Virus record (IMG/VR): IMGVR_UViG_3300025626_001460
Location: 1-23,209 of that record
Reading direction: 5' to 3' (one strand)
Source of the DNA: a virus
Length of the DNA stretch: 23,209 nucleotides
How positions within the stretch are numbered: position 1 is the first letter of the stretch; each line of letters opens with the position of its first letter. Under the pieces are notes generated by a model that saw only the letters and a list, made by a program, of their open reading frames with translations, did not search any database and was not told the DNA's origin. A program made the translations under genes and the position numbers. Of the stretch, positions 4,188 to 19,855 are shown one piece after another.

Positions 4188-4646
4188 TCAGTCTGCAAGG
4201 GGGTTATCGAGGGCTCTCTGCAACTTATTTTCCAACCTCGTCTCTAGTTCTTTGATTTCTCTACTAGTGTCGGATGTTAGAGCGTCTCGTTTTGCTTCAA
4301 AACGTTCGCTCGCCTTATCTATCATATCTCGTACTTTTTCTTCTGAAGTACGAACTTTGTCTTCTGCTCTATCCGCCTGCTTTTCTATTCGTAGTATATC
4401 ATCTTTAAGACCTGATTTAATGTCTCGAGTGTACTCAATAGCATCGTCGAGTTTTTGTTCAATTTGTATATTCCGGCTTTCGATTGCATCTATATCAATG
4501 TTCTGGACAATTTCTTTCATGTCCATATAGTCTGCGTAAAACTCGAAGGCAGCCCAGGATGCCCCACCTAAAGTAGAAAGAGCTGTAAGAACTACTGCCA
4601 TCTTTCCACCTTTAAACGTCATTCCTGCAACTTCAAACTCTGCCAT
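4188..4646 (-). CDS. Membrane-anchored coiled-coil protein
   Basis: A 152-residue protein. Residues about 15-36 form one hydrophobic helix (KMAVVLTALSTLGGASWAAF), followed by about 110 residues of charged heptad-like sequence rich in Glu, Lys, Arg and Ile, probably a long coiled coil. The layout resembles an inner-membrane spanin or a membrane tether, but no partner is certain. I have seen close relatives of the N-terminal motif EFEVAGMTFKGGKMAVVLTA in marine phages without function. It is the last gene of the secreted-protein unit and starts right after the stop of the 168-residue gene. The opposite-strand reading frame over it is a shadow. Confidence 0.7.
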   Translation of the reverse strand: MAEFEVAGMTFKGGKMAVVLTALSTLGGASWAAFEFYADYMDMKEIVQNIDIDAIESRNIQIEQKLDDAIEYTRDIKSGLKDDILRIEKQADRAEDKVRTSEEKVRDMIDKASERFEAKRDALTSDTSREIKELETRLENKLQRALDNPLAD

Positions 4647-5153
4647 TTAATTATTTCCTTTGTCTCCCTGTGTCACAACTGATTTAGCAACTGGGATCTG
4701 TACTGTAGGAGATGCGTTATCCTCTACAAATCTTAAGTTTCTTAAGTTATTGAGTTCTGCTTTAAGTTTCTGAACTTCCATCCTTTTTATTTCTAGTTCT
4801 AATTTATATAGTGTATTACAATTAATTCTTTCTTTAGGGGCGCCTATAGGTATAGTTATTCTTGCATATACGCTTACATCTTTCTCTTGCCCTAAACTAG
4901 GAGTGCTTAAGGGGTCTGAGCTGAAAGAATTATTAAAAGTATCATTATATCCTTCGTTAATTATACCTACAACCCCGAACTCTAAGTTTGTAGACGAACC
5001 AATAGCGTTCTGACACTCTACTCCGTCTGCACGGATTCTATCAGAAGCATAACTTTGGGGGCTACTAGGCAAGTTTAAGTTTAGAGAGCTTGTATCTGCG
5101 TTAGCCACGGTTGCGATTACTAATCCAAGTATCGCGACTATAAAAAATTTCAT
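4647..5153 (-). CDS. Secreted protein of unknown function
   Basis: A 168-residue protein with a clear signal peptide (MKFFIVAILGLVIATVANA, cut after ANA). The mature part has two cysteines (in GVECQNAIG and INCNTLY), a beta-rich middle (SVYARITIPIG) and a charged helix (KLELEIKRMEVQKLKAELNN) likely to coil. It would act in the periplasm or outer membrane. Its position after a pilin-like and a small secreted protein suggests a common surface structure or lysis function. I do not recognise a named family. It stops at 4647, directly before the start of the membrane coiled-coil gene. Confidence 0.65.
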   Translation of the reverse strand: MKFFIVAILGLVIATVANADTSSLNLNLPSSPQSYASDRIRADGVECQNAIGSSTNLEFGVVGIINEGYNDTFNNSFSSDPLSTPSLGQEKDVSVYARITIPIGAPKERINCNTLYKLELEIKRMEVQKLKAELNNLRNLRFVEDNASPTVQIPVAKSVVTQGDKGNN

Positions 5154-5158
5154 TTATT

Positions 5159-5536
5159 TCACTTTATTCTTGAACAAATTTTGGATGATACTATACTAGG
5201 TTCTAAGCCTGGTATATCTAGTATCTTGGACGTAGAGCAAATGAATCTTGCTTTTTTCAAATCTCTGTTACGAATGTATATTTCTACTTTCTTAGCTTCT
5301 AAGTGCTTTAGCCTTACTATTGCGTCGCTACTAGCAAAAGTTACTGGAGTCATATTACTGTCCAGAACACTTAATTCATAATACTCTATATCCTTTCTCT
5401 TATTTAACAAGTCCATTTTTGCCACTACTACCCCTGATATATAAGACGGAACTAATTTAGGATATGTTGGAGTAAATTCATGTGAGTAACTTTTGCTAGC
5501 AATAACGAAAAGCAGTAGTAATAAAAAATACCTCAT
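5159..5536 (-). CDS. Small secreted protein, possibly chaperone-like
   Basis: A 125-residue protein starting MRYFLLLLLFVIASKSYSHE, with a signal peptide cut near SYS/HE. The ATG at 5536 is chosen because it overlaps the pilin-like gene's stop as TAATG; an ATG at 5551 would overlap further. The mature part alternates strand-like segments (YYELSVLD, AIVRLKHLEAKKVEIYIRNR) and carries two cysteines near the end (FICSTS, KICSRIK). Pairing with a pilin-like gene raises the idea of a minimal pilin chaperone, yet it is about half the length of true fimbrial chaperones, so this is only a hypothesis. Confidence 0.6.
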   Translation of the reverse strand: MRYFLLLLLFVIASKSYSHEFTPTYPKLVPSYISGVVVAKMDLLNKRKDIEYYELSVLDSNMTPVTFASSDAIVRLKHLEAKKVEIYIRNRDLKKARFICSTSKILDIPGLEPSIVSSKICSRIK

Positions 5537-6039
5537 TACTGAGCAATACACTCTGCTGTTACAGTTGCAGAATAGTTTCCTGCAGGTAGAGCTTTATTAA
5601 CACCATAAGAAGCAGTTGATGTGACATCAAACCACACGCTACCTGCAATAGATAAATCAAACTCTGTTACATTATTATAAGTTATTTTCCCGCTTTCAAA
5701 CGCTGACATACCTGCATCTGAAGAGTCTCCTACTACTACTGATCCGGTCCACGTTACTGTATCTGAAAGAGTGGGCGACTGAGAAAACTGATTAGGATAT
5801 GTTACGGTAGCGTGATAAGCATTTGCTGTTACGATATCATAACGAATTCTAGGCTTTACTCCACCGTCAGCAGGGGAGGTACTAAGAGTGTATGCATTTG
5901 GGTTACCATAAACACCGTCAGTATCTGTTGTAATTACGCACTTAGACTGAACAGTACCATTAATAGGGACTGTGGCCGCTGCTGTATGCGAAATTAAAAC
6001 TGTTGAGGCTATAACAGCCATAGTTCTAAGTTTATTCAT
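5536..6039 (-). CDS. Secreted pilin-like / spore-coat-U-like beta protein
   Basis: A 167-residue protein with signal peptide (MNKLRTMAVIASTVLISHTA, cut near AAA/TV). GAGG upstream selects the ATG at 6039 over one at 6066. The mature domain looks like a fimbrial-subunit beta sandwich: an early strand with Cys (NGTVQSKCVITTD), alternating Thr/Ser-rich strands, and a final strand LPAGNYSATVTAECIA, close to the LPAGxYxxTVT ending of pilins, with a second Cys placed to close a disulfide. Fimbrial subunits are secreted and assemble on the surface. In a phage such a protein could decorate virions or alter host surface. Sequence homology is not proven. Confidence 0.55.
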   Translation of the reverse strand: MNKLRTMAVIASTVLISHTAAATVPINGTVQSKCVITTDTDGVYGNPNAYTLSTSPADGGVKPRIRYDIVTANAYHATVTYPNQFSQSPTLSDTVTWTGSVVVGDSSDAGMSAFESGKITYNNVTEFDLSIAGSVWFDVTSTASYGVNKALPAGNYSATVTAECIAQ

Positions 6040-6078
6040 AAAAGGTCCTCGGGTGCTGTTAAGCACGCTTTGATAACA

Positions 6079-6951
6079 TTAGTTATCGTACTGAAGTTCT
6101 AGCATCTTTTCATGTTTTAGTTGTTGCGCAAATATAGCTCTTCTAGCTTTTCTATTATCTGAGATTTCTTTGCGTTCAAACTCTAGAACATCATTATATT
6201 CTCCACCGTCTAGTGAATCTAAATAAGCGGGGGGAACAAAGTTCATTGCAAATAAAGCTTGCTCCTGAAGTTGGGCGGAGTCAGTCATCATTTGCATATT
6301 TAAACCTCCAAGCACTTTCTCTAGATCTAATTTCACTTTTTGGTTTTGTTTTTTTCGGTCGTACTCTTCTTGCTCTTTTTCTCTCTCAAGCTCTGCTTTC
6401 TTTTCCATTTCAGCACGAATAAGCTCATCCTGTAAAGGGTCGTTAAACTCTACTACAGGAATAATATCTTCTAAATTATAAGGGGCTTGGTAGTCTGGAC
6501 AACTAGGGTCGCTTTGAGGATCAAAACAAGTATCATATTTATATGTATAAAGAACAGAAGCGTTAGTTACACTACCTTCGCCTTCTACTTCTATAGAGCC
6601 ATTACCCCATCTTTCTATGGGTAGGGCACCAACTGGTATAACTTTTCGGATACTGTTTCCTAATAAGCCAGACCAATCATCTGTTTCTCGAAAAATGTAT
6701 CCATCTCCAAGTGCATCTTCATTTTGGACATGGACTAGCATATCAGCAGTTTCTTCTTTTACTGCTGTGTACCTATAAATAACGTTACTAACTGTAAGAC
6801 CTGCCTGTTGAGGTAGTACATTTTGCATTACCCAATTATACCCTGCTGAAGCAGCGTTTTGGCTAGTACCAAATACTTCCTCAGAGTAGGAGTAGGAGGA
6901 GCAAACTAGCAACGCCACCAACACCCCACAATGTCTTCTTAGTTGTATCAT
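6079..6951 (-). CDS. Secreted coiled-coil protein of unknown function
   Basis: A 290-residue protein with an N-terminal signal-like segment (CGVLVALLVCSSYSYSEE). Residues about 30-160 form a folded domain with several aromatic residues and Cys pairs (DTCFDPQSDPSCPDY). Residues about 175-215 are a highly charged helix (many Glu/Lys), followed by QMMTDSAQLQEQALFAMNF and a charged tail. It presumably works in the periplasm. AAGGA precedes the ATG. The first 71 bases overlap the end of the upstream gene in another frame, so its signal peptide is encoded over that gene's C-terminal membrane helix. I do not recognise a family. Confidence 0.65.
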   Translation of the reverse strand: MIQLRRHCGVLVALLVCSSYSYSEEVFGTSQNAASAGYNWVMQNVLPQQAGLTVSNVIYRYTAVKEETADMLVHVQNEDALGDGYIFRETDDWSGLLGNSIRKVIPVGALPIERWGNGSIEVEGEGSVTNASVLYTYKYDTCFDPQSDPSCPDYQAPYNLEDIIPVVEFNDPLQDELIRAEMEKKAELEREKEQEEYDRKKQNQKVKLDLEKVLGGLNMQMMTDSAQLQEQALFAMNFVPPAYLDSLDGGEYNDVLEFERKEISDNRKARRAIFAQQLKHEKMLELQYDN

Positions 6952-7426
6952 CTATTTTTCCTTCGTCTTCGAGTAGCTCAGGCTCTATGTCTGTATGGGT
7001 TTCCCACCCCGCCTTAGCGTCAGCTCCTATTAATCCATCGTAAGGACAGGGTGTTCCTGCCATCATCATTGCGTCAAAAACTCTTTTATCCTGACACATT
7101 ACTGAAACTGCTGCAACTTTCATTCCCATATCGTAAAGGGTTTTTGCATTCTTTAACTTCTCACAGTTCATATCTCGTTGAGTTGTTCCCATTGAGATGC
7201 CTAATATCTGTGTTTGTACCGCGCCCGCGACTCCTACTGTACATAAATCGGAGTTTGAAATATTCATTGTTGGTGTTATCGCTGAAGGAGGTGGAGACTT
7301 TAATGTCGTAGTACTTTCTGTCTTTATTGTACTATCTGTTGTAGAGTCTGTTATAATTACATCTTCTTCTGCTGAGACTGCTGCTGCTGAAAATACTAAA
7401 AGCAGTGGTATCCATATTTTTTTCAT
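6881..7426 (-). CDS. Secreted/anchored protein with C-terminal membrane helix
   Basis: A 181-residue protein with a signal peptide (MKKIWIPLLLVFSAAAVSAE), a Ser/Thr/Pro-rich linker at about 22-52, a central domain with four cysteines (DLCTVG, MNCEKLKN, VMCQDKRV, GTPCPYDG), and a C-terminal poly-Leu segment that would anchor it in a membrane. The block CEKLKNAKTLYDMGMKVAA looks conserved in form with unnamed proteins of aquatic phages. With both ends hydrophobic it would sit in the periplasm tied to the inner membrane. It follows the short membrane protein at 7445-7648. Function unknown; involvement in lysis or envelope remodelling is possible. Confidence 0.65.
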   Translation of the reverse strand: MKKIWIPLLLVFSAAAVSAEEDVIITDSTTDSTIKTESTTTLKSPPPSAITPTMNISNSDLCTVGVAGAVQTQILGISMGTTQRDMNCEKLKNAKTLYDMGMKVAAVSVMCQDKRVFDAMMMAGTPCPYDGLIGADAKAGWETHTDIEPELLEDEGKIDDTTKKTLWGVGGVASLLLLLLL

Positions 7427-7444: not shown

Positions 7445-7648
7445 TTATTGCATTATTAAAGTAACAACTAGTCCTGCTAGAAACAAAATAATAGCCCCTC
7501 CCATATGAAGCTGTCTTTGCTCCATACGGTCCAGTTTACCATCTATATCGTCTAGCCTATTAAACGTTGTTTTCCACCGTTCTTCGCACTGTACTTCATG
7601 TGCGCGAAGCTCAGACTTCACGTTATTAATTTCTTCTTGCTCGAACAT
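7445..7648 (-). CDS. Short coiled-coil protein with C-terminal membrane helix (XhlA-like)
   Basis: A 67-residue protein: a charged N-terminal coil (NRLDDIDGKLDRMEQRQLH) and a single membrane helix at the end (GGAIILFLAGLVVTLIMQ). This layout matches haemolysin XhlA-type phage proteins that sit in the inner membrane and assist the holin. Sequence identity to that family is not shown here. The start overlaps the probable small-terminase stop as TAATG, so it is translated from the 8.1 kb promoter unit. Together with the EF-hand membrane protein it is one of two candidate lysis-membrane proteins in the window. Confidence 0.6.
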   Translation of the reverse strand: MFEQEEINNVKSELRAHEVQCEERWKTTFNRLDDIDGKLDRMEQRQLHMGGAIILFLAGLVVTLIMQ

Positions 7649-8100
7649 TATTTTATCAACTTTTCCATGAGCTTACCGTAGTTGCCCTGGCCGAAGGGCA
7701 GCCCTTCATTAATCTGTACGTTTGTCTGATTCTTTACTTGTGTACCTTGGGCTTTCTCTAATTCTGTCTGAGCTTTAATTTCGTCCATTCTCATTTTATG
7801 AGCCATTTGAAGTAAGTCAGCAAGATCTTTACCGGAGTATACTCCGCTTACCTGCGCCTCTTCTAACTTATTCGCGATCATTTCGTCTAATAGACTCGCG
7901 ATATTATTCTTGTTGCGGTAACCTATATCCAAATAAACAGTATCAATATATTTCTTGACCTCTCGTTTATTTAAGATTTCGACTACTTTATTTTCTTGAA
8001 CGCCTAACTGCTCGACGACTCCGCGAATGTTCCCGAACTGCAAATAAGAGTTTGCTACTTCAAGTCCTTCCGGAGAGATTGTGGTTATTTCTTTACCCAT
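7648..8100 (-). CDS. terS: Probable terminase small subunit
   Basis: A 150-residue protein. The N-terminal region (NSYLQFGNIRGVVEQLGVQENKVVEILN) reads as a helix-turn-helix that would recognise the packaging site, as in small terminases that begin by scanning stepwise for 'tail of genes absent in database' style recognition helices; the middle (LDEMIANKLEEAQVSG, KDLADLLQMAHKMRMDEI) resembles the oligomerisation helices. The C-terminus is a short tail for large-subunit contact. It heads its own unit, about 6 kb from the large subunit. The ATG lies only 7 bases after the -10 box with no Shine-Dalgarno, so it is probably translated as a leaderless or near-leaderless message. Other DNA-binding roles remain possible. 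Confidence 0.65.
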   Translation of the reverse strand: MGKEITTISPEGLEVANSYLQFGNIRGVVEQLGVQENKVVEILNKREVKKYIDTVYLDIGYRNKNNIASLLDEMIANKLEEAQVSGVYSGKDLADLLQMAHKMRMDEIKAQTELEKAQGTQVKNQTNVQINEGLPFGQGNYGKLMEKLIK

Positions 8101-8136: not shown

Positions 8137-8159
8137 GAACTTTTTTTGGTGTGGTTATT

Positions 8160-8636
8160 TTAAGAACTTGGTTCAGTAGGCCAAGATATATCTTCAGGAT
8201 CATCTAGATCTGCAGGTATGTTCGATATAATGTCTCGAAGAGCTTGTCTATAGGTTCTCCATTCGGCTTTCTTTTCATCAGTAAGAGGGGAGTCTGCTCC
8301 TTGTGTCCAGTCTGAGGAAGAAAGTTTTACATACCTAAGATATCTTACTTCTTGAAGTAACGTAGTAGTATTTACAACCCACTCACTATCTCCGTCCCAC
8401 ATATACCACTGAGTAGGTTTAGGGCCCCGCGAAGCCCAGTAATTATCTCTCCAAAAATTTTCATCTAAAAACTGTGCTGGGTCAGAAAAATTTAAAGACT
8501 CTATTTCAGTATCCCTAATTAATCTAATAGTAAGATCATTTACTATAGTTCCGTCTTCTGGAATAACTCCTGAGACTCCAGTTATGTTTTTAATGTTACC
8601 TTCGCTATCTACGTAGGCTAACCAGGCTACACCCAT
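8160..8636 (-). CDS. Phage tail assembly chaperone-like protein
   Basis: A 158-residue protein. Its C-terminal third carries the pattern of the phage tail assembly chaperone domain: SSSDWTQGADSPLTDEKKAE followed by WRTYRQALRDI and an acidic, Pro-rich end (SWPTEPSS). In phages this domain sits at the end of tail-fibre operons and helps fibres fold or attach. The N-terminal half is variable (VAWLAYVDSEGNIKNITG), as usual in this group. AGGAG lies nine bases before the ATG. The first 32 bases overlap the oxygenase gene's end. It is the last gene of the fibre unit and ends just upstream of the 8.1 kb promoter. Confidence 0.75.
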   Translation of the reverse strand: MGVAWLAYVDSEGNIKNITGVSGVIPEDGTIVNDLTIRLIRDTEIESLNFSDPAQFLDENFWRDNYWASRGPKPTQWYMWDGDSEWVVNTTTLLQEVRYLRYVKLSSSDWTQGADSPLTDEKKAEWRTYRQALRDIISNIPADLDDPEDISWPTEPSS

Positions 8637-9213
8637 TTTTCATACTCCTATCTGTATTGGGAACAAAAGTCCCTTCTAAAATTTTGTTTTTATGTTTATT
8701 AAATACGTCATCACTAAGTGTTTTATAGTTGTGGTTTTTAATAAAGTCTTCTTTATAAATATTAAGCATATAAGATAGTCTTCTAGTAGAGTACCCACCT
8801 TTTGTTTTATGCCAAATTCCTGGGCCAAATATAACTAAAGAGTTTTGTTTTGGGGAGTATGTTACTTCTTTTTCTTCTGTGCACAATACTAGTTCCCCTC
8901 CGGTCATACTTGTAATAATTGGATAATATATTATAGAAACAATAGGCAGAACTAAATTTCCTAAGTCATAGGAATAATGATCGTAATCTATATGCCAATC
9001 GTAGTCATATAAGTAGCCCTCTAAAAAATCTCTTTTCCACATTTCAATAGTAGTTGCTTCTGAAATATCAAAAAAACGTTTTGTATAATCTATAATTTTA
9101 TCTATAAAAGGATAAAAAGAATCATTAAAGTTTGAGACGCGAGTTTTATAAGGGTAAGTAAGCATCTCCAAGAATTCTTCGGTATTAAGAAAATTTTCTA
9201 CTGCCTCAAACAT
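8605..9213 (-). CDS. 2-oxoglutarate/Fe(II)-dependent oxygenase
   Basis: A 202-residue protein with the double-stranded beta-helix ligands of the family: His74 and Asp76 in DWHIDYD, His135 in GPGIWHKT and Arg144 or Arg145 in STRRLSYMLNIY, which would bind the 2-oxoglutarate carboxylate. PIITSMTGGELVL is the usual strand between them. These enzymes hydroxylate proteins, nucleic acids or small molecules; prolyl-hydroxylase-like members are frequent in marine phages. Location between fibre genes and the tail chaperone suggests that a fibre side chain may be its substrate, which is inference. Start overlaps the upstream stop as TGATG. Confidence 0.85.
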   Translation of the reverse strand: MFEAVENFLNTEEFLEMLTYPYKTRVSNFNDSFYPFIDKIIDYTKRFFDISEATTIEMWKRDFLEGYLYDYDWHIDYDHYSYDLGNLVLPIVSIIYYPIITSMTGGELVLCTEEKEVTYSPKQNSLVIFGPGIWHKTKGGYSTRRLSYMLNIYKEDFIKNHNYKTLSDDVFNKHKNKILEGTFVPNTDRSMKNGCSLVSLRR

Positions 9214-9797
9214 CAGTTTCTGAGTTTAAAAACAAATATAGAGCCCATCTGGTAAAGACTTGTTCTGACATTGTTAAAATAAAAATAGTTAATAAATTTT
9301 ATAGAATTACTAGTCCATTGATAGTTATTCAGTACAAAAGGAGTACTGCCATTTTGATTGTAGATAGGAAGAACTACAGTGCCAACATAGACGTTAGTTA
9401 AACTTCCAGAGTAAATAACATCTTCATCTGATAAAACTCCTGGGGGAATAATACTTAGGATACTAAAAGCTTTAGTATAACCATCAGAGAAAGTAACTGT
9501 ATTTGTTCCTCCCGCATCAAATATTTTAATACCGTGACTTCCAGAAGCCGGAGGAGTATCCTCATCAACTGGGCGTATTCTTGCACAGTTCAAAGTAACT
9601 GAACCTGATTGATTAAAATCATGGCTTAATTTAGTGGACCCTGCGGATGTTCTATTAAAAGCAATAAAATCTCCAGCCCTACTAAAACTAGAGTTAGCAG
9701 ATAGTGTAAAAGTGGATTTCACCTGCATTTGAGTCTGATCATCGGTGTTTATTAAAACATTTCCGTTTGTATTATAAACTTGCAATCCATATGGCAT
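9213..9797 (-). CDS. Tail fibre-like structural protein
   Basis: A 194-residue protein rich in Ser, Thr, Asn, Gly and aromatic residues, with the predicted strand-rich composition of a fibre or tip protein. It begins MPYGLQVYNTNGNVLINTDD, and a closely similar phrase (YGFKVFNSSGQTIVDSD) occurs inside the neighbouring 324-residue protein at about residues 222-238. The two therefore share a domain, probably by duplication. GAGG lies before the ATG. It would sit at the distal tail and help host recognition. No catalytic motif is visible. Confidence 0.65.
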   Translation of the reverse strand: MPYGLQVYNTNGNVLINTDDQTQMQVKSTFTLSANSSFSRAGDFIAFNRTSAGSTKLSHDFNQSGSVTLNCARIRPVDEDTPPASGSHGIKIFDAGGTNTVTFSDGYTKAFSILSIIPPGVLSDEDVIYSGSLTNVYVGTVVLPIYNQNGSTPFVLNNYQWTSNSIKFINYFYFNNVRTSLYQMGSIFVFKLRN

Positions 9798-9800
9798 AAA

Positions 9801-10775
9801 TTAATACCTCAAAGCCGCATACTTTACAGCATAGGAAACACCTGTAGATCCTGCAGTAAGCTTTACTTTAAAACTACCATTTTCTCTTATAGTGGTGACT
9901 CCACCAAAAGGGTTAGTGGGGGTAGGATCGGGGTAATCAAGGTATAAAACATCAATAATTTCTTGATTGTATATATTCATACCTGCACATGAAATAGACA
10001 CAGACTCTCCCCCATTTCCCGTAACATTAACCGTTCCTGTTACTATAGCAGTTGTCTGTCTGTCAACATCTGAATCTACTATTGTTTGCCCACTAGAATT
10101 AAAAACTTTAAAACCATACCCAGTAGCCCCGCTTCCAGAGCCTGAAGTGGTAGTGTTAAATGAATGATTATTTGTACCTATACCAAGGGAGTGAGTTCTT
10201 GTAGTAGCTGCTAAAGAGCTAGTCCTAGCTCTAAAATATATAGTATCTGAACTAGTTGCTGTACCTGTGGTTTTCCAAGTTGAGTTTGCAGCAGTCCTAA
10301 ACTCTCCCGAGTTCGCTTGGACATTAACAGTAACATTAATAACTCCTGAAAGGCTTAATCCTGTCCCATTTGCTGTAGTTCCTGGAGTGCTCGTACTAAA
10401 AGTTGCATAATAAAAAGAATCTGTAGCAGCATTTGTTACATTACCCCCTAAATTTGTATAATTTTCTGGGGTAGGGTCATCTGGTACAGCAACGAAATTT
10501 CCAGAGAGGTTTCCATAATAAACTGTATTTGTTTTACCAGAACCTGTGACAGACTGAAAGGATGCGGAGTATGAAGTACTGCCAGAAGGAGTAACTGTAA
10601 TTGTGGCGCCAGCAGACCCTGAAGTTGCAGAAGTTGTACAATTAGTTACACCAGTTCTCGTCCAAGTAGAACCACCGCCATTAATAGTAAGACTAATAGT
10701 GTCTCCCGTAACAACATTTTGAGTTACAGTAGTTCCTCCGATAACTAGAGTTAGAGTTTTAGAATATACTGTCAT
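9801..10775 (-). CDS. Tail fibre-like protein, Ser/Thr/Gly-rich
   Basis: A 324-residue protein almost entirely of short strand-like segments rich in Thr, Ser, Gly and Asn. N-terminal residues 1-20 (TVYSKTLTLVIGGTTVTQNV) read as beta strands; the middle has Ig-like sandwich patterns (GVINVTVNVQANSGEFRT); the C-terminal part from about 215 contains the domain shared with the 194-residue neighbour and ends VSYAVKYAALRY. It is likely a receptor-contacting fibre or tip protein. It overlaps the acetyltransferase-like gene's stop by four bases (ATGA), so expression is coupled to the upstream promoter. Confidence 0.7.
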   Translation of the reverse strand: MTVYSKTLTLVIGGTTVTQNVVTGDTISLTINGGGSTWTRTGVTNCTTSATSGSAGATITVTPSGSTSYSASFQSVTGSGKTNTVYYGNLSGNFVAVPDDPTPENYTNLGGNVTNAATDSFYYATFSTSTPGTTANGTGLSLSGVINVTVNVQANSGEFRTAANSTWKTTGTATSSDTIYFRARTSSLAATTRTHSLGIGTNNHSFNTTTSGSGSGATGYGFKVFNSSGQTIVDSDVDRQTTAIVTGTVNVTGNGGESVSISCAGMNIYNQEIIDVLYLDYPDPTPTNPFGGVTTIRENGSFKVKLTAGSTGVSYAVKYAALRY

Positions 10776-11269
10776 CTTCTTGTAACTCTATGCATGCTCC
10801 AGTCTTCGGGGGAATAATTGCTTCCCTTAATTACATTCGCCTCAATATTTACATGGTTATAGTGAGCGGGATGAGTCGTCCACTTTTTCTTATCTACTAG
10901 CCATAATATACTTTCAGGTACCCAGTTTTGTAAAGTAGATTTATTTTTTAAACCAGCTTGAATCATTTCGTGAGTTAAGCCTTGCCCACGAAAATTAGGG
11001 TCAGTTACTATAGATGTGAAACAGTGCGTATTAGACTCTACCTTTGACAACATCCATAATATAGGGACATCATTTTTTGAATATATTCTCGACACAAAAA
11101 AGGAAGGATAAGGAGGCTCAGAGGGGGCAGGAACTCTAGTATCTAACCCTAACTCAATTGCCTGATCGGGTGTGTACTCGTCCCCTTCCAACACCCTAGT
11201 AAGCCAGGGTCTGTCATCTTCTGTAACATAATTAAATTTCCATTCTGAATTAGGTACTGTATAATACAT
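10772..11269 (-). CDS. GNAT-like acetyltransferase
   Basis: A 165-residue protein. The segment TSIVTDPNFRGQGLTHEMIQ matches GNAT motif A: a strand, then the acetyl-CoA pyrophosphate loop R-G-Q-G-L and a helix. ILWMLSKVES upstream of it could be the preceding strand. GNAT enzymes acetylate amino groups of proteins or small molecules. The ATG at 11269 is selected by AAGGAG eight bases upstream; an ATG at 11287 would translate the ribosome site itself. It heads the tail-fibre unit, so it might modify fibre proteins or be an early host-directed function. The match is from motif A only, so moderately sure. Confidence 0.55.
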   Translation of the reverse strand: MYYTVPNSEWKFNYVTEDDRPWLTRVLEGDEYTPDQAIELGLDTRVPAPSEPPYPSFFVSRIYSKNDVPILWMLSKVESNTHCFTSIVTDPNFRGQGLTHEMIQAGLKNKSTLQNWVPESILWLVDKKKWTTHPAHYNHVNIEANVIKGSNYSPEDWSMHRVTRR

Positions 11270-11280
11270 GTATTCTCCTT

Positions 11281-11334
11281 TTAACAACCAATTATACTAA
11301 CATAGAACAAAAATTTTGTGCGATTAAATTTCAT
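11281..11334 (-). CDS. 17-residue leader peptide before fibre operon
   Basis: An ATG exactly 7 bases after a consensus -10 box opens a frame encoding MKFNRTKFLFYVSIIGC, ending 11 bases before the acetyltransferase start. The stop is just before its AAGGAG site. Such a leaderless mini-frame could control downstream translation by ribosome arrival. The 13-base word GTTAGTATAATTG occurs twice, once as the promoter -10 region and once inside the frame. Reality of translation is not shown. Confidence 0.4.
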   Translation of the reverse strand: MKFNRTKFLFYVSIIGC

Positions 11335-11640: not shown

Positions 11641-11979
11641 TTAGAAGGTATATCGAACTTCAGTCTCAATCTTAGTCTTGGCAGAGCCAGTATCTTTAGT
11701 CTCTAGTTTTCCTTTAACGGTTACACCATCGAATTTGAACTTGTATCCGGCTTCATAACTATGGCCCTTCGTCATGGGCCCAATTTCAAAATAAAAATTA
11801 TTTGCCCCCTTATACCCGAGACGTAAGTGATCAGTAGTCTTTGTATGATTCCACTCTTTCATCTCGTACTCATTCTTGTACTCAACATAAGGTGCGGCTT
11901 TAATGTCTAAACTTAAAAACATAAACACTGATCCTATGAATACCAAGGCTACAATCGTTTCTTTCCAATTCTTCTTCAT
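11641..11979 (-). CDS. Small outer-membrane beta-barrel-like protein
   Basis: A 112-residue protein with an N-terminal hydrophobic export segment (VALVFIGSVFMFLSLDIKAA), then about 84 residues of alternating polar and aromatic residues typical of amphipathic barrel strands (HLRLGYKGANNFYFEIG, YEAGYKFKFDGVTVKGKLE) and a final EVRYTF. A terminal Phe preceded by alternating hydrophobics is the recognition signal for outer-membrane barrel insertion. Length suits 6-8 strands, or one half of a KdgM-type porin; I favour a small barrel. Expressed by the phage, it could mask receptors or change permeability. GGAG lies before the ATG, and an extended -10 box upstream. Confidence 0.6.
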   Translation of the reverse strand: MKKNWKETIVALVFIGSVFMFLSLDIKAAPYVEYKNEYEMKEWNHTKTTDHLRLGYKGANNFYFEIGPMTKGHSYEAGYKFKFDGVTVKGKLETKDTGSAKTKIETEVRYTF

Positions 11980-12067: not shown

Positions 12068-12093
12068 TAAAAAAGGGGCCGAAGCCCCTTTGT
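12068..12093 (-). terminator. Rho-independent terminator of the TonB receptor gene
   Basis: Read leftward, AAAGGGGC, loop TTCG, GCCCCTTT, then a T run: a classic hairpin closed by a stable tetraloop, 3 bases after the receptor's stop. Confidence 0.95.
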
Positions 12094-12095
12094 CA

Positions 12096-14501
12096 TTAGA
12101 AACGATAGGATAGTTTCGCTTGATAATGTCGCGGCAGTTCGGGGAGAACAACCGTAGTACCAAATAGGTCTGGAAAGTTTGCTCGGAAGTAACGCTCATC
12201 TGTAACGTTCTTCGCTGCAACAATGACAGACCAGTCTTCAGCATCATAGCTCACACTCAAATTTACTAGTGTGTAGGCTGGAAGGGTTACTGCGAACGAC
12301 TGACCGGATGCAACTGCATCTACATCAATCACACTACCACTAAATGCCAGACCATTACCAACAGTATAAGTACCTGTCATTGACATAATGTTTTCAGGCA
12401 TACCGGCTCGTACACCTTGGCTTGGACCTACAGGGATTAAGCCACCAACTTGTCCACCCCAGAGTAGAGTAGGATCAATTAGAGGTAGGTCTGCCTGACC
12501 AAGAAACGAAAACTCACTTCCTGCAGCGATAGTTGCAAGCATCAGTGCTTCAACATTGCTATAACCAAAAGTCATAAGGAAGTTATCACTCATTACCCAG
12601 CGTATCTCAACTTCCGTACCCTCTGTTTTCACAGCTTGGTTTACAGTAATTGATTGAGCGTTGAAGTCAGTACGTTCCATTTCGTAGGACGACACCGCAA
12701 AGTAGAGACGATCATTCATTAAACTACCTTTGAGGCCATACTCAAGTAGTTCTGAAGATCCGAAAGCATTGCCTGTAAATACATTACCGACCTGCAGTTC
12801 TGATCCTTGACCTGCGATAATAGTGTTTTGCTCTGATACTGTGACGTAGGGAACGAGTCCAATCGGTGTTGACCAACTCAAGCTTCCTGACCAAGAAACA
12901 CCAGACGGCTTCGCCGTTGCAGTATTTACAGCTACATCAACTCCACCTTCTGAAGAAGTAAAAGCTGAGTCTGATTGTGTCTTACCTTCGGGTGTAGTGG
13001 ACTCCATGTCAATGACATCGTAACGAGCACCAAGAAGAAGGGATAAACCACTCTCGTGTCCAAAATCAGCCATTACACCAAAGCCAAGGTCAGTATACTC
13101 ACCAACGTAGTATTCGCTATACTCTGAATCAATTCGAGTTGCTAGTACTCGACGGTCGAGAGCTGTAGAAGGGCCAGTAAGGTCACGTCTACTAAAATAC
13201 TCATTGTAGTAATCATCCCCGTGAGTAAACTCAGTTCGACGAATCGAAGGAGAGATCTGTACTGAAGTAGTTAAGCTGTCACCGTTAAAGACGCGTGAAA
13301 GAATTAACTGATTCTCTACTACAGAAGCATCGTGAGACTGTGAGAAACCATAAGCATTCTCATTTAGATTTTCATAGCTTTCATAGAATAACTTATTTGC
13401 TAAGTTCCACTCGTTGAGCTCTACATCGATATCAAAGTACAATGTCGTTACTTTGTTTTCGAGTAAGTCATCTGCAGCGATCAGAGTAGAGGACATTGGG
13501 AGAATTGCTGTTCCTACGTTCTCAAGAGCCATGTTTGAGTTCTCATAGTCGAAACCAAAAGAAGCATCAGACAAAGTAGCCAAATCAATGTTCTGCTGAC
13601 CGAAGAAGGCGTAAAGAGCAAAAGGATTAATGTTTCCAGCGTAGTATTCATCGTGTGAGATAAAGCCATCTCCAGATGTATCAAGAGGAGTGGGAGTACC
13701 TGTGATATAAGTACCGGTATCAATCAGATCTTGAGTTAAACGATTCCAGCCGGCATTTTGGCTTCCTTGGTAGTCATGAACCATGCCACCAAATTGAATA
13801 CGAACAGTATCAGCTAAGTCCATATCAAAGCTCGCCTGTATTAGAGATTGATTTACGCCAGGTGCGTTTGTATAAAAACTGCCAGAATGCTCCACTTCTC
13901 CATAGAGATAGTATCCAAGAGGTTTTCCACCAATTGCTGCGGGACCTCCAACTTCTGCAGTCAAAACATTACGATCCCAGCTACCTCCTGAATAGGAGAT
14001 CTCGCCAATGCGTTCCTCTATATAACTTCCGGTTTCTTCAATTCGGGCTGACTTCGGATTGAAGTTGAGATATCCACCAATTTTGGAGGGTCCCATGATA
14101 GGAGATGCAGGGCCACGAACAATGTCGACTCGATCAGATGCACCGATTGGGGTGGGGTAGTTGCCAGGATTATCTAATCGTCGAACTCCACGAAAATATG
14201 TCTCGCCTGCGGTACCTCGAACATCTAAGGAACCTGCTACACCAAAAAACGATTGGGTAAAAGTGCCAGGAGCTAGAGCGACTAACTCATCAATATCTTG
14301 CATATTGAAACGATCCATCATCTCTTCGGAAATTGTCGAAGCAGAACGAGGGGTGTCTAGAATGGATTTTTCGAAACCGAACACGCTTTCTACACGTTCT
14401 CCAGGTAGACTGCCTAGGTCGCCTACAACGACGACTTCTTCTATTTCATTTGCAAATGCGGCACTGCTCATCAACAGCAGAACCAATGTTTTTTTAAACA
14501 T
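12096..14501 (-). CDS. TonB-dependent outer-membrane receptor
   Basis: A complete 801-residue receptor. It has a signal peptide (residues 1-17, cut AFA/NE), a TonB box IEEVVVVG at 20-27, a plug domain at about 40-155 with the hallmark DRVDIVRGPASPIMGP and IGGYLNFNPKSA, then a 22-strand barrel region ending KLSYRF with terminal Phe. Such receptors import iron-siderophores, vitamins or sugars using energy from TonB-ExbBD. The plug resembles siderophore-type receptors, but the ligand is not known. AAAGGAG lies before the ATG. The gene has its own consensus promoter and terminator, the layout of a moron gene, and is richer in G+C than the tail genes. Both essential ends are intact, so it looks functional. 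Receptors of this kind are normally chromosomal. Confidence 0.95.
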   Translation of the reverse strand: MFKKTLVLLLMSSAAFANEIEEVVVVGDLGSLPGERVESVFGFEKSILDTPRSASTISEEMMDRFNMQDIDELVALAPGTFTQSFFGVAGSLDVRGTAGETYFRGVRRLDNPGNYPTPIGASDRVDIVRGPASPIMGPSKIGGYLNFNPKSARIEETGSYIEERIGEISYSGGSWDRNVLTAEVGGPAAIGGKPLGYYLYGEVEHSGSFYTNAPGVNQSLIQASFDMDLADTVRIQFGGMVHDYQGSQNAGWNRLTQDLIDTGTYITGTPTPLDTSGDGFISHDEYYAGNINPFALYAFFGQQNIDLATLSDASFGFDYENSNMALENVGTAILPMSSTLIAADDLLENKVTTLYFDIDVELNEWNLANKLFYESYENLNENAYGFSQSHDASVVENQLILSRVFNGDSLTTSVQISPSIRRTEFTHGDDYYNEYFSRRDLTGPSTALDRRVLATRIDSEYSEYYVGEYTDLGFGVMADFGHESGLSLLLGARYDVIDMESTTPEGKTQSDSAFTSSEGGVDVAVNTATAKPSGVSWSGSLSWSTPIGLVPYVTVSEQNTIIAGQGSELQVGNVFTGNAFGSSELLEYGLKGSLMNDRLYFAVSSYEMERTDFNAQSITVNQAVKTEGTEVEIRWVMSDNFLMTFGYSNVEALMLATIAAGSEFSFLGQADLPLIDPTLLWGGQVGGLIPVGPSQGVRAGMPENIMSMTGTYTVGNGLAFSGSVIDVDAVASGQSFAVTLPAYTLVNLSVSYDAEDWSVIVAAKNVTDERYFRANFPDLFGTTVVLPELPRHYQAKLSYRF

Positions 14502-14568: not shown

Positions 14569-14597
14569 ATTATACTTCGAATAATTCAAAATGTCAA
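14569..14597 (-). promoter_or_regulatory. Consensus sigma-70 promoter for the TonB receptor
   Basis: Read leftward: A-tract, TTTC, TTGACA (14597-14592), 17 bases, TATAAT (14574-14569). The leader to the ATG at 14501 is about 60 bases. Confidence 0.88.
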
Positions 14598-15590: not shown

Positions 15591-15784
15591 TCGCTCTGGC
15601 CTCTTGGATTGGGACGGCGCTATTGTGCGTCGCCCCTTTCATCATCGACACTGACGCTGGCAAGGTGTCGATGATCCTCGGCCTCGCACTGTTGAGCTTG
15701 CAAGCATTCGATAAAAAATGCTATAATCTAATTCTACTAAACACAATAGGAGCCATTGGCTATGCCATCAATCTTTATATTTGA
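15587..15784 (+). CDS. Small membrane protein with about three helices
   Basis: A 65-residue protein that is almost wholly hydrophobic. Helices are likely at about 5-18 (ASWIGTALLCVAPF), 26-41 (KVSMILGLALLSLQAF) and 45-65 (YNLILLNTIGAIGYAINLYI). Three helices in a small protein recall half-transporter types such as SemiSWEET or PnuC-like folds, but it lacks a recognisable signature and is shorter, so transport is speculation. The ATG overlaps the preceding stop as ATGA and the last 23 bases overlap the phosphatase gene. In an operon with phosphate-transferring enzymes it might handle a small metabolite or simply be a membrane-acting phage protein. Confidence 0.65.
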   Translation: MIALASWIGTALLCVAPFIIDTDAGKVSMILGLALLSLQAFDKKCYNLILLNTIGAIGYAINLYI

Positions 15785-16247
15785 TCTCGACGATACCACC
15801 GTTGATTCATCCCACCGCACAAAATTAAATGCGGATGGGTCAATCAATCTAAATCACTGGCGCAGATTCTGCACTGCTGAAAATATTCTCCGCGATTCAA
15901 TGTTACCGCTTGCCGGTAAGATGATCGAAGGCATAGCCGATGGCTTAGACATCGTGATTCTGACCTCTCGCGTTATGGGTAAAGCTGATATTGCATGGCT
16001 GAAAATGCGCGGCATGATCGCCCCCACTATTCTCAGCCGATCGGTTGCGGATGATCGCCCGACTGGTGAGTATAAACTGGCTCGGTTGCATGATCTTGCA
16101 ATCATGCGAAAGATGAGCTTCAGCGATTTAACGCGAAAAATCATCATGTGGGACGACTGCAAAAATGTTCAAAGTGTTCTCGGAAATGCTGGCGTTCGCG
16201 TCATTGATCCGGTACAATATAATCTCAATCAAAAAAAGGAAGCATAA
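15762..16247 (+). CDS. HAD-superfamily phosphatase
   Basis: A 161-residue protein with the HAD motifs: I, FDLDDTTVDSS (Asp8 nucleophile and Asp10 acid/base); II, ILTSR with Thr68; Lys around 105 in the TGEYKLARLH helix; and IV, IIMWDDCKN with Asp131-Asp132. It resembles the 3'-phosphatase domain of T4 polynucleotide kinase and 5'-nucleotidase-type HADs, so nucleotide or nucleic-acid end dephosphorylation is likely. The ATG at 15762 is preferred because AGGAG lies 9 bases before it; a TTG at 15756 is too close. Composition is richer in G+C than the flanking phage genes, like the rest of this operon. Confidence 0.82.
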   Translation: MPSIFIFDLDDTTVDSSHRTKLNADGSINLNHWRRFCTAENILRDSMLPLAGKMIEGIADGLDIVILTSRVMGKADIAWLKMRGMIAPTILSRSVADDRPTGEYKLARLHDLAIMRKMSFSDLTRKIIMWDDCKNVQSVLGNAGVRVIDPVQYNLNQKKEA

Positions 16248-16914: not shown

Positions 16915-17021
16915 AAACGAAAATTTTGGCTATGCTTTTCAAGGCTTACATGCTATACTCAGTCACAGCCGACTTGATATTAATTGGCGGAATAATTTAC
17001 TTAATCGCTAGGGGACTATAA
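16911..17021 (+). CDS. 36-residue single-helix membrane protein
   Basis: A small gene fitted exactly between the exonuclease and kinase genes, sharing ATGA with the first and TAATG with the second. The peptide begins MKTKILAMLFKAYMLYSVTA and has one hydrophobic helix to the end (DLILIGGIIYLIARGL). Overlapping start and stop on both sides is strong evidence that it is translated by coupling. GGAGG lies 12 bases before the ATG. Function is unknown; it might tether a complex to the membrane. Confidence 0.65.
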   Translation: MKTKILAMLFKAYMLYSVTADLILIGGIIYLIARGL

Positions 17022-17641
17022 TGAAATTAAAAACAGAACAGGCTCGATTAAATCGCAACCTTGAAGGCCGCGGCCATCGCGGAATTTGCGTTGTACTCGA
17101 AGGGCGCGACACTGCTGGAAAATCTAGCACGATCCGCGAGGTGACGCACTACCTAAACCCACGGCATTTTTCGGTTCACTTGAGCGCAATGCCTAGCAAA
17201 TCCACCATGAAAAATTGGCTTGGCTATTGGGGCAACAAAATGCCCGCTTGCAATCAGGTTGTTTTTTATGATCGTTCATGGTATAGCCGCGCAATGGTTC
17301 AGCGCTTGAATAATTGGTGCTCCGAGACGCAATACCAGAATTTTCTAGCGAACCACAAAGCATGGGAAGAATCGCAAGGCGTTCACATGATAAAATTCTG
17401 GCTATCGATTGACGAAAACGAGCAACGCGCACGAATCGAAAACCGCAAAAAATCGCCATTGACCTACTGGAAATTTTCAGAGAATGACGAAAATGCGCTT
17501 TCCTATTATGACCGCATGACCATTTTAAAAGAGCGCGTGATTGATGGCGAATGGAATGTGATCAATTACAATGATAAAGAAGCGGGCATACTATCACTGA
17601 TGCGAATACTCAACGACCGCCTTGAGGCTCTCCCCAAATGA
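17021..17641 (+). CDS. PPK2-family polyphosphate kinase
   Basis: A 206-residue kinase with Walker A EGRDTAGKSS at residues 27-36, NPRHFSVHLSAMPSK as the sugar/base segment, Walker B QVVFYDRSWYSRA at 79-91 with Asp84-Arg85, and a lid RKKSPLTYWKFSENDENA (142-159). These are the diagnostic PPK2 motifs: the family transfers phosphate between polyphosphate and nucleoside mono- or diphosphates. It is a little shorter than typical single-domain PPK2 (about 230-300), mostly at the ends, and keeps all motifs. The phage could use host polyphosphate to regenerate NDP/NTP; that is inference. It ends the operon; the stop lies within a strong inverted repeat beside a parS site. Confidence 0.92.
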   Translation: MKLKTEQARLNRNLEGRGHRGICVVLEGRDTAGKSSTIREVTHYLNPRHFSVHLSAMPSKSTMKNWLGYWGNKMPACNQVVFYDRSWYSRAMVQRLNNWCSETQYQNFLANHKAWEESQGVHMIKFWLSIDENEQRARIENRKKSPLTYWKFSENDENALSYYDRMTILKERVIDGEWNVINYNDKEAGILSLMRILNDRLEALPK

Positions 17642-19203: not shown

Positions 19204-19536
19204 ATGACTAAGGACAAAACAGCAGTAAATGCGGAACGTAACTACTCAGACGAAATGGTTGCACGAATGATGAAAGTATACAGTGCTAACCCTACTCGTG
19301 ATACAGCAGAAGAGCTGGCAGTAGAGTTCGATAAGCCAGTACGGAGTGTAATTGCAAAACTTTCTAACTTGGGCATCTACAAAGCTCAAGCGCGAGTAAC
19401 CAAAAGTGGTGCTCCAGTAGTACGAAAAGAAGACATTGTAGCTCAGATTCAAGCAACAGTTGGCGTATCAGTGCCTACCCTTGCCAAAGCTACAAAGCAA
19501 GACCTGATGACTCTTTTATCAGCTCTTGGTACATAA
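19204..19536 (+). CDS. HTH-like small protein, paralogue 2 of 3
   Basis: A 110-residue protein starting MTKDKTAVNAERNYSDEMVA. GGGAG lies upstream of the ATG at 19204; an in-frame ATG at 19162, 10 bases after the -10 box, would add 14 residues by near-leaderless initiation. Residues about 35-60 (EELAVEFDKPVRSVIAKLSN) form a likely helix-turn-helix, followed by a linker with TKSGAPVVRKEDIVAQIQAT and a C-terminal helix. The plan matches paralogues at 15291 and 21227. It may bind nucleic acid; no function is known. It ends a few bases before the tmRNA acceptor segment. Confidence 0.72.
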   Translation: MTKDKTAVNAERNYSDEMVARMMKVYSANPTRDTAEELAVEFDKPVRSVIAKLSNLGIYKAQARVTKSGAPVVRKEDIVAQIQATVGVSVPTLAKATKQDLMTLLSALGT

Positions 19537-19539
19537 TTC

Positions 19540-19855
19540 GAAGAAGCTAAAGTAGGATTGAATGGACGGGGGTTCGATTCCCCCCTCCTCCACCAAAAGC
19601 ACACCTGTAAGGCGTAGTAAGGTTCCCACCGGACTACCGCAGAAGACTACGCAGGGTGTGTTTTTGATGGGGGAGCACGGTTTCGACAGGCAATCTCAGG
19701 TTAGTGGAGAATCGGTGTGCAAGCTACCGTAAACGTAAGAAAATTATAAATGGCAATGATGACATTTACGACATGGCAGCCTAAACAACCCTCTGGGTAG
19801 TTAGGTGATAGCCGGGGAAACGCAGGCCGCCTAGCAACAGAAAGGGTTCTGCACC
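19540..19855 (+). ncRNA. ssrA: Circularly permuted (two-piece) tmRNA
   Basis: tmRNA rescues stalled ribosomes and tags the peptide. The acceptor part comes first: a T arm GGGGG-TTCGATT-CCCCC (19568-19585), the strand CTCCTCC and ACCA ending at 19595. An intervening hairpin (19599-19661: CACACC/GGTGTG outside GCGTAGT/ACTACGC) is presumably cut out. The coding piece begins at 19669 with GGGGGAG and GGTTTCGACAGG. The 7-base acceptor stem forms between the pieces and contains G3-U70, the alanine identity pair. CAATCT (19691-19696) pairs with GGATTG (19555-19560) as the long helix. The tag frame ends NGNDDIYDMAA, stop at 19782-19784. A hairpin domain follows (AACCCT/AGGGTT; GTTAGG/CCTAGC). Outer ends are approximate. 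Confidence 0.93.

Follow-up and report, generated by a model that had tools for sequence, protein, structure and literature searches.

What does a TonB-dependent receptor (TBDR) do in the genome of a phage, and from where was it acquired? The question is raised by a linear 23,209-base fragment from an IMG/VR virus record (the whole of this stretch is called the window here), in which a receptor gene stands among phage genes. A sequence-only reading of the window had regarded the gene as phage cargo (a moron gene), and it had offered three roles: feeding the infected cell with iron or a vitamin, replacing or crowding out the receptor of competing phages, and acting as a decoy.

The receptor gene and its setting

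The gene opens with ATG and runs for 801 codons with no internal stop; from the sequence, the product begins with the hydrophobic leader MFKKTLVLLLMSSAAFA and ends in Phe (Table 1). Its Plug domain was matched by PF07715 (E=6.7e-12, 46.3 bits against a cut-off of 23.9), although the Pfam barrel model gave no score on the same protein. The barrel is represented by an AlphaFold2 model of moderate confidence (m2d5ec4b5b006; pLDDT 66, pTM 0.73), calculated from an alignment of 37 phage and bacterial sequences, which has approximately 22 strands and for which Foldseek ranked Fiu, FoxA, PiuA and FhuA at the top of the solved folds. This model replaced an earlier run on 12 close sequences that had turned out poor (pLDDT 40). 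With a Plug domain, a modelled 22-strand barrel, a signal peptide and a TonB box, the protein is recognized as a TonB-dependent receptor, and its earlier description as intact, with terminal Phe, was correct. In its large extracellular loop, the residues D274, G277, D278, G279, S282, H283 and E285 of an EF-hand-like calcium motif are invariant in the 37 phage and bacterial sequences.

Table 1. Features of the window around the receptor gene
Feature	Position	Strand	Basis
Terminase small subunit	7648..8100	-	phrog_3802, E=2.2e-37
Tail fibre assembly homologue (landmark of the fibre block)	8160..8636	-	homology
Small exported protein, weak likeness to phage outer-membrane beta-barrel	11641..11979	-	PF24653, below cut-off
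Intrinsic terminator, TTCG tetraloop hairpin then T run	12072..12091	-	sequence
TonB-dependent receptor gene, family TBDR-A	12096..14501	-	801 aa ORF, Plug domain, model, Foldseek
22-strand barrel, residues 165-801	12099..14009	-	AlphaFold2 model m2d5ec4b5b006, Foldseek
EF-hand-like motif DTSGDGFISHDE, large extracellular loop, residues 274-285	13647..13682	-	sequence
Plug domain, residues ~46-164	14010..14366	-	PF07715
TonB-box-like segment EIEEVVVVG, residues 19-27	14421..14447	-	sequence
Predicted signal peptide, residues 1-18	14448..14501	-	judged by eye from sequence
Sigma-70-type promoter TTGACA-17-TATAAT, upstream of receptor	14569..14597	-	12/12 consensus match
T5-like deoxynucleoside-5'-monophosphatase (dmp) homologue	15756..16247	+	32% identity, E=7e-25
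Polyphosphate kinase 2 (PPK2; nucleotide phosphorylation from polyphosphate)	17021..17641	+	PF03976, E=7.6e-43
Permuted tmRNA	19535-19784	+	RF04321, 107.8 bits; ARAGORN tag GNDDIYDMAA

The promoter is kept in the related contigs L002, L003, L004, L006 and L010, and the terminator hairpin, AAAGGGGC-TTCG-GCCCCTTT followed by the T run, is kept downstream of the receptor in L002-L006. Because the two elements reappear in relatives despite divergence of the sequence around them, they are considered more than chance, and the proposal that the receptor has its own consensus promoter and tetraloop terminator is well supported. Its location was likewise described accurately, with the tail-fibre block, represented by the fibre-assembly homologue and the terminase small subunit, on one side and the early arm, with the permuted tmRNA further in, on the other. 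The gene for the small exported protein adjoins the receptor in relatives also, and the dmp homologue additionally matches a polynucleotide kinase phrog. Genes similar to the permuted tmRNA are found in L066, L328 and L343. A 2OG-Fe(II) oxygenase-like protein is encoded between the tail-fibre genes (8605-9213, minus strand), and a run of small consecutive ORFs at 4188-7426 (minus strand), mostly with export signals, has an order common to many relatives; none of these ORFs was matched to a family whose function is known.

Cargo of a distantly T5-like phage

Both receptor junctions recur in the independent IMG/VR contigs L002, L003, L004, L006, L010, L011 and L026, and no mis-assembly joint is apparent from these contigs. 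In a contig of 82.8 kb (G177), terminase and portal are repeated approximately 77.9 kb apart, which gives a unit of that length that appears to be circularly permuted. Replicate junctions and the G177 repeat together eliminate mis-assembly and a chromosomal prophage as explanations, and the assignment of the receptor as a phage cargo gene is upheld. The relatives' contigs span some 78-96 kb, and genomes of the group measure at least about 78 kb.

The terminase is nearest to that of T5-like Demerecviridae (48% identity), and portal (37-42%), major tail protein (27-37%) and dmp (29-37%) also resemble T5-like proteins, the phage matched being a Vibrio T5-like phage. The replication block of G177, as read from translations, is T5-like in holding a flap endonuclease, gp46/47-like proteins, DNA polymerase, primase, helicase and a split ligase; the replication region of a relative (L332:9158-9625, minus strand) encodes a NifU/IscU-like Fe-S scaffold (phrog_8429). 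A tblastn search of four large contigs, none of them certified complete, did not find the A1 pre-early protein, and the group is therefore called distantly T5-like and is not assigned to Demerecviridae. A marine Pseudomonadales host is suggested provisionally from the receptor tree; the permuted tmRNA and the pelagiphage-like NrdB of the group would not by themselves point to such a host.

Host origin and conservation

In a tree of 56 sequences, the window-type phage receptors group as a single clade within the receptors of marine Pseudomonadales, the nearest bacterial relatives in the comparison that the sequence-only reading had proposed. The phage receptors of a second genomic location (slot 2, below) form another clade elsewhere among the bacterial sequences. 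Forcing all phage TBDR-A together was rejected (AU test, p-AU 6e-57), and the family was thus taken up by this phage group on at least two separate occasions. Among 101 genomes sampled from the nearest host family, 37 encode a homologue at E<=1e-150, with 88% as the maximum identity. One apparent bacterial origin, L047 (GTDB 'Rhodobiaceae'), was discarded as a contig of phage origin placed in a bacterial bin, its TBDR being near-identical to those of L018/L022. GC3 is lowered in the phage copies, having shifted to that of the phage (0.34 for the window gene as compared to 0.54-0.57 in the nearest hosts), and synonymous differences between phage and host copies are saturated, which implies an old capture followed by long residence.

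Between window-type phage copies, dN/dS is 0.04-0.09 (Nei-Gojobori, with several pairs near saturation), indicative of purifying selection. Collectively, the nested tree, the AU test, the dN/dS values and the occurrence in several contigs characterize a host-derived gene kept stably in phage genomes. The chromosomal orthologues in purine clusters of marine Pseudomonadales (for example L027, L028, L031) are 82-88% identical to the window receptor and agree with it in plug, TonB box and loops; they differ in that they lie within a purine cluster, whereas the phage gene is solitary and has a promoter, terminator and signal peptide of its own, the last being where phage and host copies differ most. 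Fixed phage/host differences are absent from the plug (119 sites) and from the TonB-box/linker (residues 21-45), and they amount to 3 of 300 sites in extracellular loops and 11 of 307 in membrane strands, with loop limits taken from the moderate-confidence AlphaFold2 model. The loop-to-core ratio is 0.85 for phage/host pairs versus 0.77 between hosts. Such conservation is that expected when a transporter still works, not when a surface is changed to evade binding. With plug and TonB box preserved, and loop divergence within the level among bacteria, the partners of the host copy should also be bound by the phage copy.

Two slots for outer-membrane proteins

The window locus is one of two slots occupied by interchangeable outer-membrane proteins, a feature that had escaped the earlier reading, as had the repeated capture of the receptor and the genes of nucleotide metabolism around it. 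Slot 1, flanked by the fibre/terminase-small block and the early arm, contains TBDR-A (the window and relatives) or a distinct family, TBDR-B (L086/L087 and relatives; for example L086:1733-3925, minus strand, and L357-L362), the third TBDR family of the group. Slot 2, between NrdB and a fibre block of opposite orientation, holds a TBDR-A orthologue, TBDR-C or a TorF-type porin (TIGR02001), or is empty; the respective rows number 12, 2 and 6, with 54 lacking an outer-membrane protein, a tally not to be read as a frequency, some contigs being counted twice and the sample being biased to close NrdB relatives. The slot-2 TBDR-A copies directly follow NrdA-NrdB (ribonucleotide reductase) on the same strand, and a GAAA-loop hairpin is placed after the slot-2 TBDRs. 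Assignment of the NrdB-adjacent contigs to a separate T4-like phage was abandoned, as large contigs carry NrdB together with the window-type early arm, showing one group having two slots. In the cultured phage collection, none of the three phage TBDRs found a match above approximately 34%, and a search for the bacterial origin of TBDR-B returned nothing above 42% identity.

The TBDR and the neighbouring fibre genes do not co-segregate. L011 is 97% identical to the window at nucleotide level in the fibre block, 78% in the TBDR and 66% in the terminase, and TBDRs of the window type occur with mostly unrelated fibres in L004, L005 and L007. Identity of 97% between L011:2150-5256 and window positions 8155-11314, beside terminases at 66%, denotes a recent module exchange.

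Purine genes around the bacterial receptors

On either side of the bacterial TBDR-A orthologues are genes for an adenosine deaminase and a NUP protein, both secreted according to export signals judged by eye, and further neighbours include NCS2/AzgA permeases, an HPRT-like PRTase, PuuE allantoinase, allantoicase and AllA (ureidoglycolate lyase). By comparison with a local reference set, at least one purine neighbour is present at 24 of 34 bacterial TBDR-A loci, and at least two at 22; the ten loci devoid of any are mostly divergent and in some cases short-flanked. All 12 bacterial TBDR-C loci have purine neighbours, their flanks being the shortest, which works against their count. The 20 control TBDR loci have none, these being loci that matched TBDR-C in three of the same host genomes, not a random draw; flank lengths differ among the loci compared. 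As TBDR-C and TBDR-A are only distant relatives (24% identity over parts), two families point to purines. Among distant bacterial homologues of TBDR-B, the purine context is absent. Homologues of the TorF-type porin (30-38% identity) are located near GlnK and/or AmtB, as read from the sequences, at 5 of 6 bacterial loci, a weak link to nitrogen.

Proposed role and its alternatives

From these comparisons, the receptor is tentatively understood as a working importer of purines or purine nucleosides, host-derived metabolic cargo that would supply nucleotide synthesis of the phage; we regard this reading as only marginally more probable than not. The infected cell would make the receptor from the phage's own promoter, and the protein would enter the outer membrane and draw energy from the host TonB-ExbB-ExbD. 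Purine nucleosides, or larger purine-bearing molecules, might thus be drawn into the periplasm, where the host's adenosine deaminase, NUP-type protein and NCS2 permeases could hand the bases onward. The added purine, also a nitrogen source, may then support dNTP synthesis with NrdAB, PPK2 and the dmp-like phosphatase. PPK2 and the dmp-like gene lie near the receptor in the window, and NrdAB, outside its 23 kb, is ascribed to the group from relatives; this nucleotide-gene setting fits purine supply and does not prove it. Feeding is hence the role, of the three offered originally, that fits best, with the ligand shifted from iron or a vitamin to purines or purine nucleosides by the bacterial gene context. 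Against purine import stand the indirect nature of gene-context evidence, the ten TBDR-A loci and the TBDR-B homologues that lack purine genes nearby, and the prior plausibility of a receptor role given that T5-like phages recognize TBDRs; in addition, purine bases and nucleosides fit through ordinary porins, and a cell late in infection may have too little time to gain from a new receptor.

Surface remodelling or superinfection exclusion, in which the receptor would compete for assembly, space or TonB and so cut adsorption of rival or sibling phages, is judged unlikely, yet it is the alternative with the most to recommend it. T5-like phages, the closest by terminase, recognize the TBDRs BtuB, FhuA or FepA as receptors (PMC8594841); these phages bind host TBDRs, and none in the cultured collection was found to encode one like that of the window. 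Tail-fibre genes adjoin both slots, and the slot contents (TBDR-A, B, C and TorF) are interchangeable outer-membrane proteins; from the slot-1 position, a link to adsorption or exclusion is possible. Against this, TonB box and plug are fully preserved, loop divergence does not exceed the level between bacteria, TBDR and fibre genes have been exchanged independently, and the purine link of two distantly related TBDR families would have to be coincidence. The porin Lc of phage PA-2, for which surface remodelling or exclusion has reportedly been proposed, is likewise a phage-encoded outer-membrane protein and is a general porin, unlike the TonB-dependent transporter of the window.

Import of a non-purine nutrient (an iron chelate, a vitamin or another nitrogen compound), with the purine neighbours incidental or regulatory, is held to be distinctly unlikely. 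The best sequence matches come from generic siderophore-receptor models (TIGR01783), below cut-off, and siderophore receptors are also the nearest in fold; an iron or siderophore ligand was set aside, its support being limited to such models. The same-slot porins near GlnK-AmtB and the TBDR-B context also lend themselves to a ligand other than purine. The contrast between controls and both purine-linked families argues otherwise, as does the adjacency of adenosine deaminase-like and NUP genes, which persists even in divergent lineages (L039, L042, L043, L050, L056, L062).

The decoy role, with receptors shed on debris or vesicles to titrate competing phages or bacteriocins, agrees with the preserved extracellular surface; however, a decoy needs neither plug nor TonB box conserved, and it would be costly if it also bound the phage's own tail, and we therefore rate it very improbable. 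The competitive roles of the original proposal, replacement and decoy alike, are thus disfavoured, with the use of TBDRs by T5-like phages remaining in their support. An assembly artefact, or host DNA beside phage, conceivable for a linear metagenomic fragment, is of negligible probability given identical junctions amid diverged sequence, phage-like GC3 and phage genes on both flanks.

Relation to known systems and significance

To our knowledge, most phage metabolic cargo genes work inside the cell. If true, the purine-importer reading would imply that a phage-encoded, energised outer-membrane transporter lets infection alter which dissolved compounds are imported, and it would tie viruses to the exchange of purines among ocean microbes (PMC11698098). 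It also provides a predicted ligand for a TBDR family without assigned substrate in the family libraries used. TBDRs have been reported from other marine phages. The TBDR gene of pelagiphage Polarivirus skadi, likened here by description and not by sequence, lies among structural genes outside any metabolic context and was read by the authors as a clue to which receptor is used for adsorption (PMC10504331); the SusC-like TBDR of megaphage Mar_Mega_1 was proposed as an auxiliary metabolic gene (PMC9723777), with a carbohydrate as substrate and in a genome of over 650 kb. The repeated capture, the interchangeable slots and the purine link appear novel, no report of them having been found in the open-licence literature, which also held nothing direct on a purine TBDR or on a SAR92 phage with a TBDR. 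It is conceivable, if short of probable, that in a widespread marine phage group the two slots are docking sites for interchangeable nutrient receptors, that purine transporters were captured repeatedly from the hosts, and that infection reprogrammes the uptake of dissolved organic matter by ocean bacteria.

Facing the slot-2 outer-membrane gene in L363 (6295-6939), L202, L203, L207 and L232-L235, a predicted lipoprotein of approximately 220 aa ('LGAC' or similar) is encoded, which could have a role in exclusion or a structural one.
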